A stretch of 64,000 bases of DNA, taken from positions 1-64,000 of the forward strand of contig NZ_CANKXG010000001.1 of NCBI RefSeq assembly GCF_947487575.1. Reading direction: 5' to 3'. Under the pieces are notes generated by a model, which worked only from the letters and a program-made list of their open reading frames with translations, was not told the origin of the DNA and ran no database searches. Source of the stretch: an uncultured Algibacter sp. (lineage in GTDB: Bacteria > Bacteroidota > Bacteroidia > Flavobacteriales > Flavobacteriaceae). The position numbers and the translations under genes were made by a program. Of this stretch, positions 6,524 to 39,194 are shown in pieces (the stretch's first letter is position 1; every line of letters begins with the position of its first letter).

Positions 6524-7411
6524 ATGAAAGTTGCCATTTTTGGACGATATTATAATGTTACAACCCCAACATCTGTTGAAACACTTTTCAATTATCTTGA
6601 AAATCAAGGAATAGAAGCACATATTGAAACCGAGTTCTATAGCCTTATAGACCGCGAATCGCATAGCATAAAAGACTTCAAGAATTACAAAACGTTTACA
6701 GAACTCGATACAGATTTCGATTTTTTGGTTAGCATAGGTGGTGACGGTACTATATTAAGAGCCACCATGTTTGTAAAAGATTTAGGCATTCCTATAATAG
6801 GTATAAATACAGGTAGACTTGGTTTTTTAGCAACCATTCAAGTTAATGCCATTGAAAAAGCTATACAAGATATTATAGATGGAAATTATAGAATCTCAGA
6901 ACGTAGCCTTTTATCTGTCGAAACATCCTCAGGAAACAAAGATATCAAAGCCATGAATTTCGCCCTCAACGAAATTTCAGTTAGCAGAAAAAACACTACT
7001 GCTATGATAACAATAGACACTTATTTAGACGACGAATTTCTAAATTCCTATTGGAGCGATGGTCTTATAGTGTCTACTCCTACAGGCTCAACTGGCTATT
7101 CACTAAGTTGTGGCGGCCCAGTAATAACACCCGGATCCAGCAGCTTTGTACTAACACCCATTGCGCCGCATAATCTAAGCGCTCGCCCACTAGTAATTCC
7201 AGACTCAACCGAAATACACCTTAGAGTAAACGGCAGAGAAAAAACACATTTAATATCATTAGACTCTAGAATAGCCACTTTAGATAATGGCACACTTATT
7301 AAAATCAAAAAGGCCAATTTTAAAATTAAAATGATAGACCTTTTAAACGAAAGTTTTTTAGATACACTAAGAAAAAAGCTTCTTTGGGGAGAAGACAAAA
7401 GAAACAAATAA
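6524..7411 (+). CDS. nadK: NAD kinase
   Basis: Phosphorylates NAD to NADP in the cytoplasm. The 295 residues show the family GGDGT motif at 72-76 (in IGGDGTILRA), the downstream LNEISVSR segment and the glycine-rich TPTGSTGYSLS motif, followed by the C-terminal beta domain. Length is normal and the start is ATG. A structured intergenic repeat starts immediately after the stop codon. It lies downstream of the CBS-domain gene, and the DUF6089-uppS-bamA unit follows with its own promoter. Confidence 0.96.
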   Translation: MKVAIFGRYYNVTTPTSVETLFNYLENQGIEAHIETEFYSLIDRESHSIKDFKNYKTFTELDTDFDFLVSIGGDGTILRATMFVKDLGIPIIGINTGRLGFLATIQVNAIEKAIQDIIDGNYRISERSLLSVETSSGNKDIKAMNFALNEISVSRKNTTAMITIDTYLDDEFLNSYWSDGLIVSTPTGSTGYSLSCGGPVITPGSSSFVLTPIAPHNLSARPLVIPDSTEIHLRVNGREKTHLISLDSRIATLDNGTLIKIKKANFKIKMIDLLNESFLDTLRKKLLWGEDKRNK

Positions 7412-7414
7412 TTT

Positions 7415-7513
7415 TTTGGGCGTTACCCTAAACGGGTCGGGCTTTCCGTTGCAAGTCCTCGCACCTCCTACGTCGGGCTGTGGGCTTTTCACTGCAATCC
7501 CTAACGCAGTATA
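7415..7513 (+). repeat. Structured intergenic repeat, copy A
   Basis: This copy opens with TTTTGGGCGTTACC three bases after the nadK stop and ends with CCCTAACGCAGTAT, so GCGTTA and TAACGC can pair at the base. The two arms contain an imperfect 20-bp direct repeat (7439-7458 and 7482-7501, both GGGCTTT-N5-TGCAA). The first hairpin site, which is long in other copies, is minimal here (CC-CTAAAC-GG). Related copies are at 36716-36843, 38424-38560 and 16891-17068. The remainder of the gap to 7716 holds AT-rich sequence and a promoter. Confidence 0.8.
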
Positions 7514-7671
7514 ATCCGTAATCTCCAATTTTAATTTATCACCTATTTCCTTCTTAACATCACCTACATTCACCACAATAAATTTATGTTTCCGTACCTT
7601 TTCAAAACAAATTTCAACAATATTTTAATAGAATTTCTGTTTTAAACCCATACAATTAAGCTCAAATTACA

Positions 7672-15555: not shown

Positions 15556-16698
15556 ATGAAAAATATACTTATAATTATAGTTGGTTTTTTGATTTATCAA
15601 AACGGATTCACACAAATAAAAAGAAATCCAACCAAACAGACTAATCTTACAATTGAAATAAATAAGAACATCGAGTTATTAGGCTTGGTTTATTTTATAC
15701 TATTTGAAGGACAAGATCTTGAAACCAAAACCTTAAAAGTTGAAGGTAAAACTTTACTTAAAAAAGAATGGCACAACTATGGTTTTACGATTTACCAACA
15801 ATACAAGTCTAGTGTCTCAAGTGAAAACTTAGGAAAATCTTTATCAGTTGCCAGTCATTTAAGAATTGAATATATATCTGCTTTTCTCCTTCAAACCGAA
15901 AGTGTCCCACAGGCTAAGTTTTCTGACTCAATAAATAAAAAATACTATTTAGATTTTTCAAAAGAAAAAAATATTGGAGAGGCAAAAAAGAATGCCGAAA
16001 TATTTTTGAACGGACTAAATGCTTTTTCTAAAGAAATAGATTTTGACAACTATTTGACTAACTCAAAAAAATATTATAACAAAGTAATTGAAGAGGTCCA
16101 AAATGGGCTTCCAAATACTAGGTTCATCAAAGTTATGGAATCTTTTTATAAGAAGAAGTTTGACAATTATATACTAATCCCTAGTTTAACCATTCCTAAA
16201 GGAATGGGATTTGCTTTTTGGAATACCAATAGCGCCGAGAAAAAAATATTTAGTGTGTTTGGAGCCTTAGATATTCAAGAATTTGAAAATTCTAAAAATT
16301 TGAAGATGGGTTTTTTAAACCAACAAAAATTAAGAGAATTGACCGTTCATGAATTTGGTCATTCTTTTGTAAATCCAACTATAGATAAATTACCAGCCAA
16401 TCTACTCATACGTACAGAACATCTATTCATACCCATAAAGTCTGCAATGATAGAACAGGATTACATCAATTGGAAATTATGCATTGATGAACATTTTGTT
16501 AGAGCAGGAGAGATTATTATTGCAGATAAAGTTGAAGGAAAAAGCGGGGCTAATGAATTACTTTTAGAGTACCAAAAAAATAGACAATTCAAATATCTTC
16601 CAGAAATACTAATTGAGTTGAGAAAATATGATAAAGTAAAAAACCAATCTTATTATGAAACAGTAAAAAAAATAATGAAACAATTAGCAGAACTATAA
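15556..16698 (+). CDS. DUF4932-like secreted putative zinc metallopeptidase
   Basis: A 380-residue exported protein. A signal peptide (about 1-19, ending GFTQ) is followed by a helical domain and HEFGH at residues 265-269, a gluzincin-type zinc motif, with FVNP right after it as in the DUF4932 family. Peptidase activity is likely but not proven for the family. Starts with ATG. It lies alone downstream of the AraC-type regulator and is followed by a 373-bp gene-free stretch. The substrate is unknown. Confidence 0.75.
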   Translation: MKNILIIIVGFLIYQNGFTQIKRNPTKQTNLTIEINKNIELLGLVYFILFEGQDLETKTLKVEGKTLLKKEWHNYGFTIYQQYKSSVSSENLGKSLSVASHLRIEYISAFLLQTESVPQAKFSDSINKKYYLDFSKEKNIGEAKKNAEIFLNGLNAFSKEIDFDNYLTNSKKYYNKVIEEVQNGLPNTRFIKVMESFYKKKFDNYILIPSLTIPKGMGFAFWNTNSAEKKIFSVFGALDIQEFENSKNLKMGFLNQQKLRELTVHEFGHSFVNPTIDKLPANLLIRTEHLFIPIKSAMIEQDYINWKLCIDEHFVRAGEIIIADKVEGKSGANELLLEYQKNRQFKYLPEILIELRKYDKVKNQSYYETVKKIMKQLAEL

Positions 16699-16890
16699 TT
16701 AAATACGTTTCACAACAAAGTATAAACCTTATTGCTGGCTTTTAGCTTACTTGCGAAAGTCCTCGCAGACTTTCTATTCAGTAATAATTCACTTACTTTT
16801 AGCTTAAAAAAACGCAACAAACCATATACAAACACGTTAAACGAACCACTCCAAAAAACAAACCAACTTTCGATTTAAAAATATATTCCG
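16699..16890. other. Gene-free stretch with a small hairpin
   Basis: This is the first half of the 373-bp gap between DUF4932 and the carbonic anhydrase-like gene. It contains a hairpin GAAAGTC-CTCGCA-GACTTTC (16755-16774). The core AGTCCTCGCA is shared with the structured repeat family, so it may be a decayed fragment. Nothing else is recognised. Confidence 0.5.
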
Positions 16891-17068
16891 GCAAGTTAGG
16901 CCAGAGATTGAAGCGGCATACTTTTACTTTTCTTGTAAATTGTCTAGAACCTTCAAAATAAGTTATAAATTTAATTAATGGATTCCTGCCTTCGCAGGAA
17001 TGACAAAAAGTAAAAGATATAACGGAAATCTAGACCTCCCGATAGCTATCGGGAGTGTTTACGCCCAA
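16891..17068 (-). repeat. Structured intergenic repeat, copy D, with a nested palindromic element
   Basis: Read on the minus strand, it begins with TTTGGGCGT two bases after the 17072 stop. The first hairpin site holds the perfect palindrome CTCCCGATAGCTATCGGGAG (17036-17055). The conserved TTTCCGTTA arm follows, then a second stem built from complementary ACTTTTACTTTT-type arms. Inside that stem is a copy of the ATTCCTGC/GCAGGAAT palindromic element (16982-17001). It ends in GCCGCTTCAATCTCTGGCC, a diverged form of the CAATCCCTAACGC end. Confidence 0.7.
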
Positions 17069-35777: not shown

Positions 35778-35857
35778 TGTCATTCCTGCGAAGGCAGGAA
35801 TCTATTCAATTTAATTTACGGTTTTTAAAGTAGATTACTGCCTTCGCAGGAATGACA
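35778..35857. repeat. Inverted pair of GTCATTCCTGCG palindromic elements
   Basis: Two 27-bp elements (35778-35804 and 35831-35857) are inverted copies with one mismatch. Each is itself a hairpin (CTGCGAAGGCAG or CTGCCTTCGCAG core). They fill the gap between SCO and the 213-residue membrane-associated protein and could form one large cruciform or act as a transcript end. The same element occurs at 16982-17004, nested in another repeat. Confidence 0.75.
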
Positions 35858-36618: not shown

Positions 36619-36715
36619 AAAAAAGCGGATTTAATAACCGCCCAAATTTTGTTATTTAACTACTTGATTAGGTTACACGAACCTATTTATTTAGTCATGT
36701 AACCTGGCAGATACA

Positions 36716-36843
36716 TGCGTTAGGGATTGAAGTGGATAGCCCACAGCCTGATCCCGATAGCTATCGGGAGAAGTGCGAGGACTTGTAACGGAAAACCCGA
36801 CCTATATCCTGAACTAAATTCAGGATATAGGTAACGCCCAAAA
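36716..36843 (-). repeat. Structured intergenic repeat, copy B
   Basis: On the minus strand it begins TTTTGGGCGTTACC and ends CAATCCCTAACGCA. The first hairpin site holds a perfect 13-bp stem with a 5-nt loop (36801-36831, arm CCTATATCCTGAA). The conserved GGTCGGGTTTTCCGTTACAA arm follows. The second site holds the perfect palindrome CCCGATAGCTATCGGG (36753-36768). It lies between subunit IV and the 213-residue gene. It fills most of the 392-bp stretch that lacks an assigned gene. Confidence 0.85.
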
Positions 36844-36904: not shown

Positions 36905-37285
36905 CTAAAAATCTCTTTTTATAAAACCATTGTCATATACATCAAAAACATAACCGCCTTCTTGCAATAAGATGAATATTAGGTAAAGAATAAGGAAAAT
37001 TGCAGTCCAAACTACCATACGTCGTAACGCTTTTGTTTCATCGCGCATGTGCATAAAATCCCATGTAATGTAATATGCTTTTACTATGGTTAAGATAATG
37101 AATATCCAGTTTAAGAGTTTCATACCTAAAAACTTAGCCATTAAAGCCTCTGGTTTTACAATACCTAATGCAACCTCTATTATAGTTACAATGGTGAGGA
37201 AAATTAAAACGCCCCAAATTTTTTGAGTGTTTGATTTGAATTTTAATAATCCTTGAAATATTTCTAATTTATGTTCGTGTGCCAT
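36905..37285 (-). CDS. Cytochrome c oxidase subunit IV family protein
   Basis: A 126-residue inner-membrane protein with three transmembrane helices (about 25-43, 50-70 and 85-107) and the motif ITWDFMHMRDETKALRRM, typical of prokaryotic COX4/CtaF-like subunits of haem-copper oxidases. It stabilises the CuB region in related enzymes. ATG start, 51 bp after the large subunit III gene, so probably co-transcribed with it. A terminator follows. Confidence 0.93.
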   Translation of the reverse strand: MAHEHKLEIFQGLLKFKSNTQKIWGVLIFLTIVTIIEVALGIVKPEALMAKFLGMKLLNWIFIILTIVKAYYITWDFMHMRDETKALRRMVVWTAIFLILYLIFILLQEGGYVFDVYDNGFIKRDF

Positions 37286-37336: not shown

Positions 37337-38329
37337 TTAAACCAGGTAGAAGAATGTAAATACAAATACCCAAACTAAATCTACGAAGTGCCAATACAGT
37401 CCTACTTTTTCAACCATTTCATAACTTCCGCGTCTTTCGTAAGTACCTAAAACAACATTAAAGAAAATAATGATATTAATTATAACACCCGAGAATACGT
37501 GAAACCCGTGAAATCCTGTTATAAAGAAAAAGAAATCGGCAAAAAGTGGTGAACCATACTCGTTTACATGAAGGTTAGCACCCTCAACATACAATCTACC
37601 ATTTTTCATGATTTGGTTTATAGACTCTTCTCTAGATAAAACTGTTTTTTCGCCTTCTTCGTTTATGATTTGAGTACGTACTAAAACATCTTTATTAGCT
37701 TGTAATCCATGAATTACTTCGTCCATAGTATAAGCAGGAAGTGCACCTTCATCTACAAACCAAATTCCTTTTCGGCTTTCATGTTGCGTTCTATCTTGAT
37801 GCGCTGCAGCAACTGCAAAATCTCTAACAGCTACACGTTTAAAAACCTGTTCGCCATCTTTGTCAACATAATGACCAAACTGTAAAATATTACCGCCTTT
37901 AGTTTGTACTGCGCCATAATCGCCTTTAATAAATGTACCCCATTCCCAAGCCTGCGACCCAACAAATATTAAACCACCAATAATGGTTAAAAACATGTAA
38001 ATGGTTACTTTAGCCTTGTTCATGTGGTGACCTGCATCTACAGCTAACACCATAGTTACAGACGACATAATAAGTACAAACGTCATAAACGCCACATAAT
38101 ACATAGGTGCATCTACACCATGCAAAAACGGAAAGTGTGTAAACACCTCATCTGCAATTGGCCATGCATCAATAAATTTAAATCTTGAAAATCCGTAGGC
38201 TGCTAAAAAACCCGAGAATGTTAAGGCATCAGAAACAATGAAAAACCACATCATCATTTTACCGTAACTTGCTTTAAGTGGCTGATTACCACCTCCCCAA
38301 GTCTTACCTTCTGCTACTGCTGTACTCAT
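37337..38329 (-). CDS. Cytochrome c oxidase subunit III (long form)
   Basis: A 330-residue subunit III of a haem-copper oxidase. N-terminal and C-terminal transmembrane helices of the family are present (MMMWFFIVSDALTFSGFLAAYG, ITGFHGFHVFSG and the final WHFVDLVWVFVFTFFYLV). About 120 hydrophilic residues (roughly 115-235) are inserted between helices, a feature I associate with Bacteroidota. ATG start. A shorter subunit III paralogue lies upstream, separated by repeat copy C, and subunit IV lies downstream. Confidence 0.95.
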   Translation of the reverse strand: MSTAVAEGKTWGGGNQPLKASYGKMMMWFFIVSDALTFSGFLAAYGFSRFKFIDAWPIADEVFTHFPFLHGVDAPMYYVAFMTFVLIMSSVTMVLAVDAGHHMNKAKVTIYMFLTIIGGLIFVGSQAWEWGTFIKGDYGAVQTKGGNILQFGHYVDKDGEQVFKRVAVRDFAVAAAHQDRTQHESRKGIWFVDEGALPAYTMDEVIHGLQANKDVLVRTQIINEEGEKTVLSREESINQIMKNGRLYVEGANLHVNEYGSPLFADFFFFITGFHGFHVFSGVIINIIIFFNVVLGTYERRGSYEMVEKVGLYWHFVDLVWVFVFTFFYLV

Positions 38330-38423: not shown

Positions 38424-38560
38424 TTTTGGGCGTTACCTTTTACTCATACCTGCTAGATTTTAAAATCTAGCAGGTATGAGTAAAAGGTCGGGCTTTCGGC
38501 AGTCGTTCCCTCCTTAGGTTGGGGAACTTCAACAAATGCCTCAATCTCTAACGCAGTATA
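38424..38560 (+). repeat. Structured intergenic repeat, copy C, with a perfect 52-bp palindrome
   Basis: Plus-strand orientation, beginning TTTTGGGCGTTACC and ending CTAACGCAGTATA. The first hairpin site contains a perfect 52-bp palindrome without any loop (38436-38487, arms of 26 bp centred at 38461/38462). The GGTCGGGCTTTC arm follows. The second site differs from the other copies and carries GTTCCC...GGGGAAC. It is antisense to the flanking cox genes and occupies most of the 283-bp gap between the two subunit III genes. Confidence 0.85.
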
Positions 38561-38612: not shown

Positions 38613-39194
38613 TTATCTAACAAAATACAAAAACAAAAAGAGGTATACCCAAAGAATATCTATAAAATGCCAAAACGTTCCAGCCAATTCAAAACCTAAC
38701 ATATTTGTTGGTGTATACTTTTGTTTAAAATGATTATAAATTACAACCAATACACAAAATAAGCCAACCACAACGTGCAAAATATGCACAATAGCAATTA
38801 AATAAATGTAAGACATGGTTACATTACTCGTTGGACCCGTAAAATTATACCCTAAATCAATTATCTGTTGAAAACCAGAAAACTGATTGAAAATAAAAAT
38901 AACACCCAAAATTAATGTAGCAATTAACCAAAGTGAAGTTGCTTTATGATTTCCGTTTTTTAAAGCGCGCTTCGCTAAAATAAATGTAAGGCTACTCAAA
39001 ATTATTACAACCGTACTAACAATAAAGGCATTTGGTAAAACAAAATCTTTTAACCAATCGGGTCTAGAGCTACTTACTACAAAAGCACTTGTCCACCCAG
39101 CAAAAGACATAATTAAGGAAATAATCCCAAACCAAAGCATCATTTTTTTGGCTCTGCTATTTTTTTCTTGTGGTGTTCCTTGCGTTAAATCCAT
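38613..39194 (-). CDS. Cytochrome c oxidase subunit III (short form)
   Basis: A 193-residue, five-helix subunit III-like protein: KKMMLWFGIISLIMSFAGW near the start, HILHVVVGLFCVLV, and the terminal ELAGTFWHFIDILWVYLFLFLYF. It is smaller than its neighbour and lacks the hydrophilic insertion. ATG start, three bases after ctaB, so the two form one transcript. Having two subunit III-type genes side by side is usual in this phylum. Confidence 0.94.
   Translation of the reverse strand: MDLTQGTPQEKNSRAKKMMLWFGIISLIMSFAGWTSAFVVSSSRPDWLKDFVLPNAFIVSTVVIILSSLTFILAKRALKNGNHKATSLWLIATLILGVIFIFNQFSGFQQIIDLGYNFTGPTSNVTMSYIYLIAIVHILHVVVGLFCVLVVIYNHFKQKYTPTNMLGFELAGTFWHFIDILWVYLFLFLYFVR

Follow-up and report, generated by a model that had tools for sequence, protein, structure and literature searches.

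The window, by which we mean the whole 64,000-nucleotide stretch analysed, forms the start of contig 1 of a genome from an uncultured Algibacter species (3.5 Mb in 35 contigs), and it carries four copies, A to D, of an intergenic repeat. Copy A follows ORF 6524-7411, copy C lies beyond a terminator-like hairpin that comes after ORF 36905-37285, and copy D sits between two minus-strand ORFs (37337-38329 and 38613-39194). The strand described throughout is that used in the initial annotation of this DNA, on which copies A and D are read from the plus strand and copies B and C from the minus strand; the Rfam model discussed below represents the opposite strand. The features are as follows, with the evidence for each in brackets.

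7415-7508, plus strand: copy A, full element (sequence; starts 3 nt after the stop codon, 7409-7411, of ORF 6524-7411; orthologs in relatives)
7420-7425, plus strand: copy A, 5' side of the closing stem, GCGTTA, which pairs with TAACGC at 7502-7507 (sequence)
7425-7437, plus strand: copy A, hairpin 1, ACCCTAAACGGGT (sequence)
7439-7458, plus strand: copy A, arm 1 of the core stem, GGGCTWTCCGYTNCAAGTCC type (covariation; Flavo-1 match)
7482-7501, plus strand: copy A, arm 2 of the core stem, GGGCTWTCCRCTNCWATCCC type (covariation; Flavo-1 match)
16891-17068, minus strand: copy B, degenerate (sequence; Flavo-1 match below gathering score)
36716-36843, minus strand: copy C, full element (sequence; Flavo-1 match below gathering score)
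36752-36769, no strand: copy C, tip of hairpin 2, palindrome TCCCGATAGCTATCGGGA (sequence; genome-wide placement)
38424-38555, plus strand: copy D, full element of the GGCAGTC module class (sequence; antisense to both neighbouring ORFs)
38435-38488, plus strand: copy D, hairpin 1, a perfect 54-nt palindrome (sequence)

The initial annotation described a single order of conserved blocks in all four copies, and this description fits A, C and D. The block GGGCGTTACC is exact in A (7418-7427, plus), C (36830-36839, minus) and D (38428-38437, plus), mismatches in the second block number none in A, one in C and three in D, and in the end block only D deviates, by one mismatch. Copy B is degenerate. 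Its blocks read GGGCGTAAAC, then GGTCTAGATTTCCGTT with three mismatches, then an end with a disrupted CCTAACGC, and the closing pair GCGTTA/TAACGC consequently does not hold. Hairpin 1 of copy B carries CTCCCGATAGCTATCGGGAG, and its interior is of the TATATCTTTT class with a nested CAGGAATCC palindrome. Copies A and D had both been placed two or three bases after a same-sense stop codon, which is correct for A but not for D.

On the described strand, the element consists of TTTGGGCGTTA, hairpin 1 (ACC...GGT), a single C, arm 1, the tip of hairpin 2, arm 2 and TAACGCR. Arm 1 is GGGCTWTCCGYTNCAAGTCC and arm 2 is GGGCTWTCCRCTNCWATCCC in the canonical class. Other interior classes have the outer arms in common with it and differ inside (TATATCTTTT..AAAAGGATGCC; CACTACTCGC..GCGAGCTCAAACATGCC; GGCAGTCGC..GAGCTTCAACAAATGCC), and a further variant carries an inserted TATTCATG.. 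segment. The side hairpins had been regarded as unrelated between copies, which needs qualifying: many of them come back elsewhere as members of a module class or as palindromes, TCCCGATAGCTATCGGGA being one. When one mismatch is allowed, this palindrome is present at 25 places in the genome, 20 of them in elements or shortened relics and five outside, and within elements it occupies hairpin 1 or the hairpin 2 tip. Sequences of the CGTCATTGCGAGG type are likewise nested inside hairpin 2 or the interior of some copies.

Several further repeats lie near elements or apart from them. Two TCCCGATAGCTATCGGGA palindromes are located outside elements on contig C14 of the same genome (L306), at 70707 and 70975, the former shortly after an apparent gene end. 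The window also carries an inverted pair of AGATTCCTGCCTTCGCAGGAATGAC-type palindromes (35779-35803, minus; 35832-35856, plus) that is related to the palindrome nested in copy B at 16980-17004. A second repeat, GTTCGTTTA(A)CG, accompanied in some copies by TATACGGTGTTG, is found downstream of a subset of elements: after copy B (window about 16690-16890) and at loci L061, L063, L066, L068, L082, L093 and L098. We considered this repeat as a longer 3' tail of the element and rejected the idea, as in L082 it begins approximately 340 nt past the element.

The 3' end motif CAATCCCTAACGCA, with at most one mismatch, has 114 matches in the 3.5 Mb genome versus none for the same pattern read backwards, and the repeat family is therefore far from a chance finding. 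A total of 87 elements were extracted from fetched stretches of this genome. Later permissive matching gave 106 copies, of which one is a false match within a gene (L026-2041) and several have a misplaced 5' end. Copies are dispersed over the genome in both orientations, and the element is present in all 10 genomes of the genus that were searched, which bears out the initial annotation's claim of a repeat family. Most elements (217 of 227) are 80-179 nt long. The initial annotation's placing of similar sequences in flavobacterial genomes was too narrow, since copies also occur in records titled Chitinophagaceae, Pedobacter and Bacteroidales. With regard to a possible phage origin, seven viral contig stretches match a core pattern of the element. 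One full element (L148), with a Flavo-1 match of 56.6 bits, lies on a contig labelled Candidatus Saccharibacteria, which is possibly a misbinned Bacteroidota contig.

Although the initial annotation knew of no established name, the core stem is that of Flavo-1, which Rfam lists under RF01705 as a motif from Bacteroidetes with no known function, read from the opposite strand. When the Rfam structure line is set against the arm pairs that we counted, both give three base pairs, a mismatch, two base pairs, 3-nt loops, two base pairs, 3-nt loops and an inner helix. The likeness extends to the spacing of the internal loops and to the phylum, as the element is found in Bacteroidetes, and some copies from this genome and its relatives reach the Rfam gathering score. 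The Rfam model differs in that it is on the opposite strand and leaves the ends unpaired, with neither the closing stem nor hairpin 1. Thus, the repeat family is Flavo-1, with more of the element described here and its opposite strand read.

No Flavo-1 match is obtained in the window at the gathering score (42 bits). At a relaxed threshold, matches below that score appear for copy A (7431-7516, minus; 32.5 bits, E 0.0056), copy B (16894-17040, plus; 31.0 bits) and copy C (36697-36806, plus; 21.9 bits), whereas copy D is not among the matches even then. The gathering score recovers six of 20 loci tested in the same genome and misses 14. Among the collection loci, seven of 18 match at the element itself, and an eighth match (L114) is to another copy. 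Each of the 10 genus genomes has at least 20 to 47 Flavo-1 matches with E of 0.001 or less. In total, 35 of the 60 genomes searched, this one included, have at least one match, compared with none of 14 control genomes. The literature passages on Flavo-1 that we consulted assign it no function, and six longer arm strings of the element had no match in literature text.

Arm pairs were counted in 159 canonical elements out of 229 from own, sister and collection loci, the remaining 70 being of other module classes. The two arms pair with each other rather than each within itself. Core pair 6 is T-A in 104 elements and A-T in 53 (99% paired versus 55% with shuffled partners). Core pair 17 is G-C in 97, T-A in 53, C-G in three and A-T in two (97% versus 50%), and core pair 20 is C-G in 119 and T-A in 36 (98% versus 61%). 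Core pair 11 is weaker, with 68% paired versus 56% when shuffled. Hairpin 1 retains both of its outer C-G pairs in all 229 elements, although the search pattern by which the elements were collected itself contained CC and GG.

A MAFFT alignment was made of 53 canonical copies of at most 112 nt, comprising 52 from genome-collection records plus copy A, with 13 Aquimarina loci skipped by hand. In this subset, 94.9% of cells are paired compared with 88.8% in shuffles, and 74 cells have changes on both sides compared with 21.4 in shuffles, a count that none of 500 shuffles reaches. The covariation score is 0.208, versus 0.104 when shuffled and at most 0.082 when slid. The number of pairs with any both-sided change (six versus 5.5 in shuffles) and the number of further pair types (12 versus 14.0) show no excess in the same 53 copies. 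The initial annotation had proposed looking for covariation beyond chance, and the both-sided cells and the score reveal it. RNAalifold, unaided, recovers hairpin 1 and the closing stem together with the greater part of the core stem. Of the closed junction with two side hairpins that had been suggested, the core stem and one pair of hairpin 1 are supported by covariation, whereas the closing stem is conserved only: 99.6% of its cells are paired almost without variation, and a stem that hardly varies affords no covariation test.

The sites were also compared with those of relatives (genomes designated G001 to G009). At site A, compared in genomes other than G003, an element lies directly after the same gene in G001, G004, G005, G007 and G008, a relic is present in G002, and G006 and G009 have no element. 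The interior is canonical in our genome, G001, G005 and G008, with differing inserts, and belongs to two other classes in G004 and G007. At site B, where the left flank could not be aligned, elements of three different interior classes adjoin the right-hand gene in G004, G006 and G007. Site C holds an element in G007, a relic in G004 and nothing in G008 and G009. Site D holds an element of the same module class as our copy in G004, G007 and G008, and none in G009. Hairpin 1 has diverged at this site, where our perfect palindrome corresponds to imperfect hairpins of different sequence in G004 and G007.

A wider comparison of our sites, against 460 kb from each of the two sister species G007 and G008, placed 12 sites of the 106 own copies. 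The 21 site comparisons comprise 16 with the element present, one partial (an element by eye) and four scored absent, one of which (L003 in G007) is a relic by eye. Alignment of the left flank runs to within 29 nt of the element in the relative for 15 of the 16 present cases, and to 125 nt for the remaining one (L005). Some relatives carry additional sequence of several hundred bases to the right (331 and 1114 at L062; 432 at L060, after a short aligned piece). The interior, or second hairpin, class differs in eight of 17 retained elements: A in G007, L004 in both relatives, L005 in G007, L059+ and L059- in G008, and L062 in both. These classes were assigned by eye because the automatic module labels were wrong for C and for A in G008 and absent for D. 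The suggestion that the loops are replaced or regenerated is therefore supported by orthologous sites. What is new here is that the sister-species comparison indicates exchange of the inner hairpins while the element keeps its site.

In 12 of 15 testable pairs, the core resembles another copy of the same genome more closely than it does the ortholog, in a test that sets the nearest of 105 copies against a single ortholog and leaves C in G007, where detection was truncated, out of the 16 present pairs. The ortholog is closer than any paralog in the other three comparisons, at copy D and L059+. At L059+, our genome, G007 and G008 have GTCAGGCT..ATCCTTAACGC in common, in which A-T replaces the usual G-C outer pair, an uncommon state found in four of 106 own copies. 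Hairpin 1 of our copy is identical to that of G008 at 37 of 49 aligned columns, and the interior in G008 is of another class. Given the common hairpin 1 and A-T pair, the different interior was exchanged inside an inherited element. Sites A and B of G004 carry elements with a single base difference over 89. In the 10 genus genomes their module has mismatch-free matches at these two sites alone, and it is found with three mismatches at seven more places in our genome, G004 and G007. Among the empty sites compared, where the relatives are too diverged, none reveals a recent insertion marked by a clean empty site or a target duplication.

We consider it probable that the element is a REP/MITE-like DNA repeat, with Flavo-1 as its core stem, that undergoes conversion within the genome, a reading that draws on the sequence comparisons above. 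When single-stranded, the element would fold through its GCGTTA/TAACGC stem, hairpin 1 and a long core stem capped by the variable hairpin 2. Interiors might then be replaced by non-reciprocal conversion between dispersed copies, with the conserved arms serving as the homology. We infer this conversion from similarity between copies, and it would explain interiors that are held in common within a genome while sites and outer arms are kept. Imperfect hairpins may be corrected by strand switching during replication, which would explain why perfect hairpins have imperfect orthologs. The arms could be maintained by homogenisation, by selection on folding, or by both. The original spread of the family would have needed an enzyme, and a search for Y1_Tnp, the sole family searched, identified no mobilising enzyme. 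Flavo-1, listed since 2010 as a probable RNA, would thereby be recast as part of a larger repeat, present in many copies, in which the interior is exchanged while the site is kept. There is a trap in this: covariation is the usual proof of a structured RNA, and in repeated DNA it could arise or spread by conversion.

The covariation fits a functional RNA equally well. Under this explanation, which we regard as possible though doubtful, Flavo-1 is a structured 3' UTR or small RNA element that is selected copy by copy, with its hairpin tips free to vary. Compensatory changes between orthologs agree with it, as the copy D stem is GCTCCC/GGGAGC in G004 and G007 versus GTTCCC/GGGAAC here, and the outer stem of L004 in G007 has C-G for G-C. 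Also in its favour, 58 of the 87 own elements have an upstream ORF in the same sense, and 32 of these begin no more than 13 nt from the stop codon of that ORF, compared with three of 45 where the stop of an opposite-strand ORF faces the 3' end (Fisher 9e-8). This placement in our genome could reflect a 3' UTR role. At the collection loci, 12 of 34 elements lie within 20 nt of a stop, versus three of 37 in the opposite arrangement. However, only 34 of 69 collection copies with both neighbours are in the sense of the upstream ORF, and the orientation bias in tandem gaps of our genome is weak (35 versus 21, p 0.08). Convergent gaps hold more copies than divergent gaps (23 and seven), and nine of 88 elements at collection loci overlap a mechanical ORF. 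The element has an AT-rich leader at positions -7 to -1, and this leader could itself be the source of stop codons. An intrinsic terminator was considered and dismissed, as there is no T-run past the element in the copies read by eye.

A difference in folding energy between the strands speaks for an RNA, but the evidence on which strand would be transcribed is contradictory. On average, folding energy is lower for the Rfam strand (-27.35 kcal/mol versus -25.51 for the described strand), and the described strand is lower in 63 of 229 elements, or in 26 without G-U pairs. The conserved mismatches read as G.A on the Rfam strand. In contrast, the mismatches at core pairs 18, 19 and 23 of the described strand are G.T, with A.C at 0.00, and core pair 11 reverses this order (A.C 0.09, G.T 0.02). 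Published statements point in both directions as well. In the portion of Weinberg 2010 that treats the motif, Flavo-1 is rated as probably an RNA, probably not cis-regulatory and probably not a riboswitch. Passages of a study of F. psychrophilum report that several 5' transcribed regions coincide with Flavo-1 matches, but also that matches are sense or antisense indistinctly and that many lie outside transcribed regions (PMC9723704).

An actively mobile, non-autonomous element that is moved by a Y1/RAYT (HUH) transposase, and that gains new interiors by re-insertion at the same sites, seems unlikely. The high copy number and folded ends would suit such an element, and counts of Flavo-1 and Y1_Tnp matches correlate over 60 genomes (Spearman 0.49, p 7e-5, uncorrected for kinship). 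In addition, the one Y1_Tnp match of our genome is about 1.4 kb from a copy, although this local Y1-like domain is in frame with HemF. Y1_Tnp matches are absent from six of the 18 genomes that have 10 or more Flavo-1 matches, among them G008 with its 32, which weakens the case for a RAYT/Y1 transposase as driver even though the positive correlation remains. The retention of hairpin 1 and the outer pair at L059+ alongside a different interior argues against re-insertion of the whole element. Moreover, no gene-bearing parent was found among 298 loci (1.79 Mb), where all 227 arm pairs lie within 220 nt. The strict pattern left eight 5' and 20 3' arms without a partner at these loci, and those that were read have an altered partner or an arm at the end of the locus.

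The HemF fusion is an observation in its own right. On contig C10 of our genome (L038:340-1863, minus), an N-terminal domain that resembles a Y1 transposase shares the reading frame of HemF, or coproporphyrinogen III oxidase. The Pfam scores are 449.6 bits for HemF and 20.2 bits for Y1_Tnp (cut-off 23), the latter reaching 24.6 bits in another search. A frame in G009 (L278:1471-3039, plus) reads alike by eye, and Y1 matches in long open frames of G001 and G002 may be the same fusion.

We consider quite unlikely a dedicated exchange system, in which the element would be a constrained frame at fixed sites and an enzyme acting on the folded single strand, not general recombination, would swap hairpin cassettes. 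If a specific enzyme did perform the exchange, this would be a new kind of recombination. An integron attC-type recombination site, that is, a folded single-strand site after the stop codon of a gene, would match the fold, the variable tips and the frequent placement just after stop codons, but is highly improbable and was rejected: attC sites run from RYYYAAC on the left to GTTRRRY on the right, the element has the inverted order (GCGTTACC left, CCTAACGC right), and its copies are dispersed in both orientations.

Among known systems, the probable DNA repeat proposed here resembles REP/REPIN sequences with their RAYT proteins in being dispersed, intergenic, palindromic and present in about 100 copies, and REP-like palindromes are nested in some interiors. 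A REP sequence, however, is a tagged hairpin of 20-40 nt, whereas the present element has two long arms and is larger, and by eye neither GTAG nor CGTC is found at its ends. The CGTC-tagged palindromes described in passages of PMC3733652 resemble, by similarity only, the CGTCATTGCGAGG-type sequences in some second hairpins. They would be a separate family, nested in the element as a guest. Compared with a MITE, the element has only a 6-bp closing pair, no target duplication at the diverged empty sites and no parent among the 298 loci. BOX, ERIC and similar repeats are modular and intergenic and have variable inserts, and on this general description the element may be like them.
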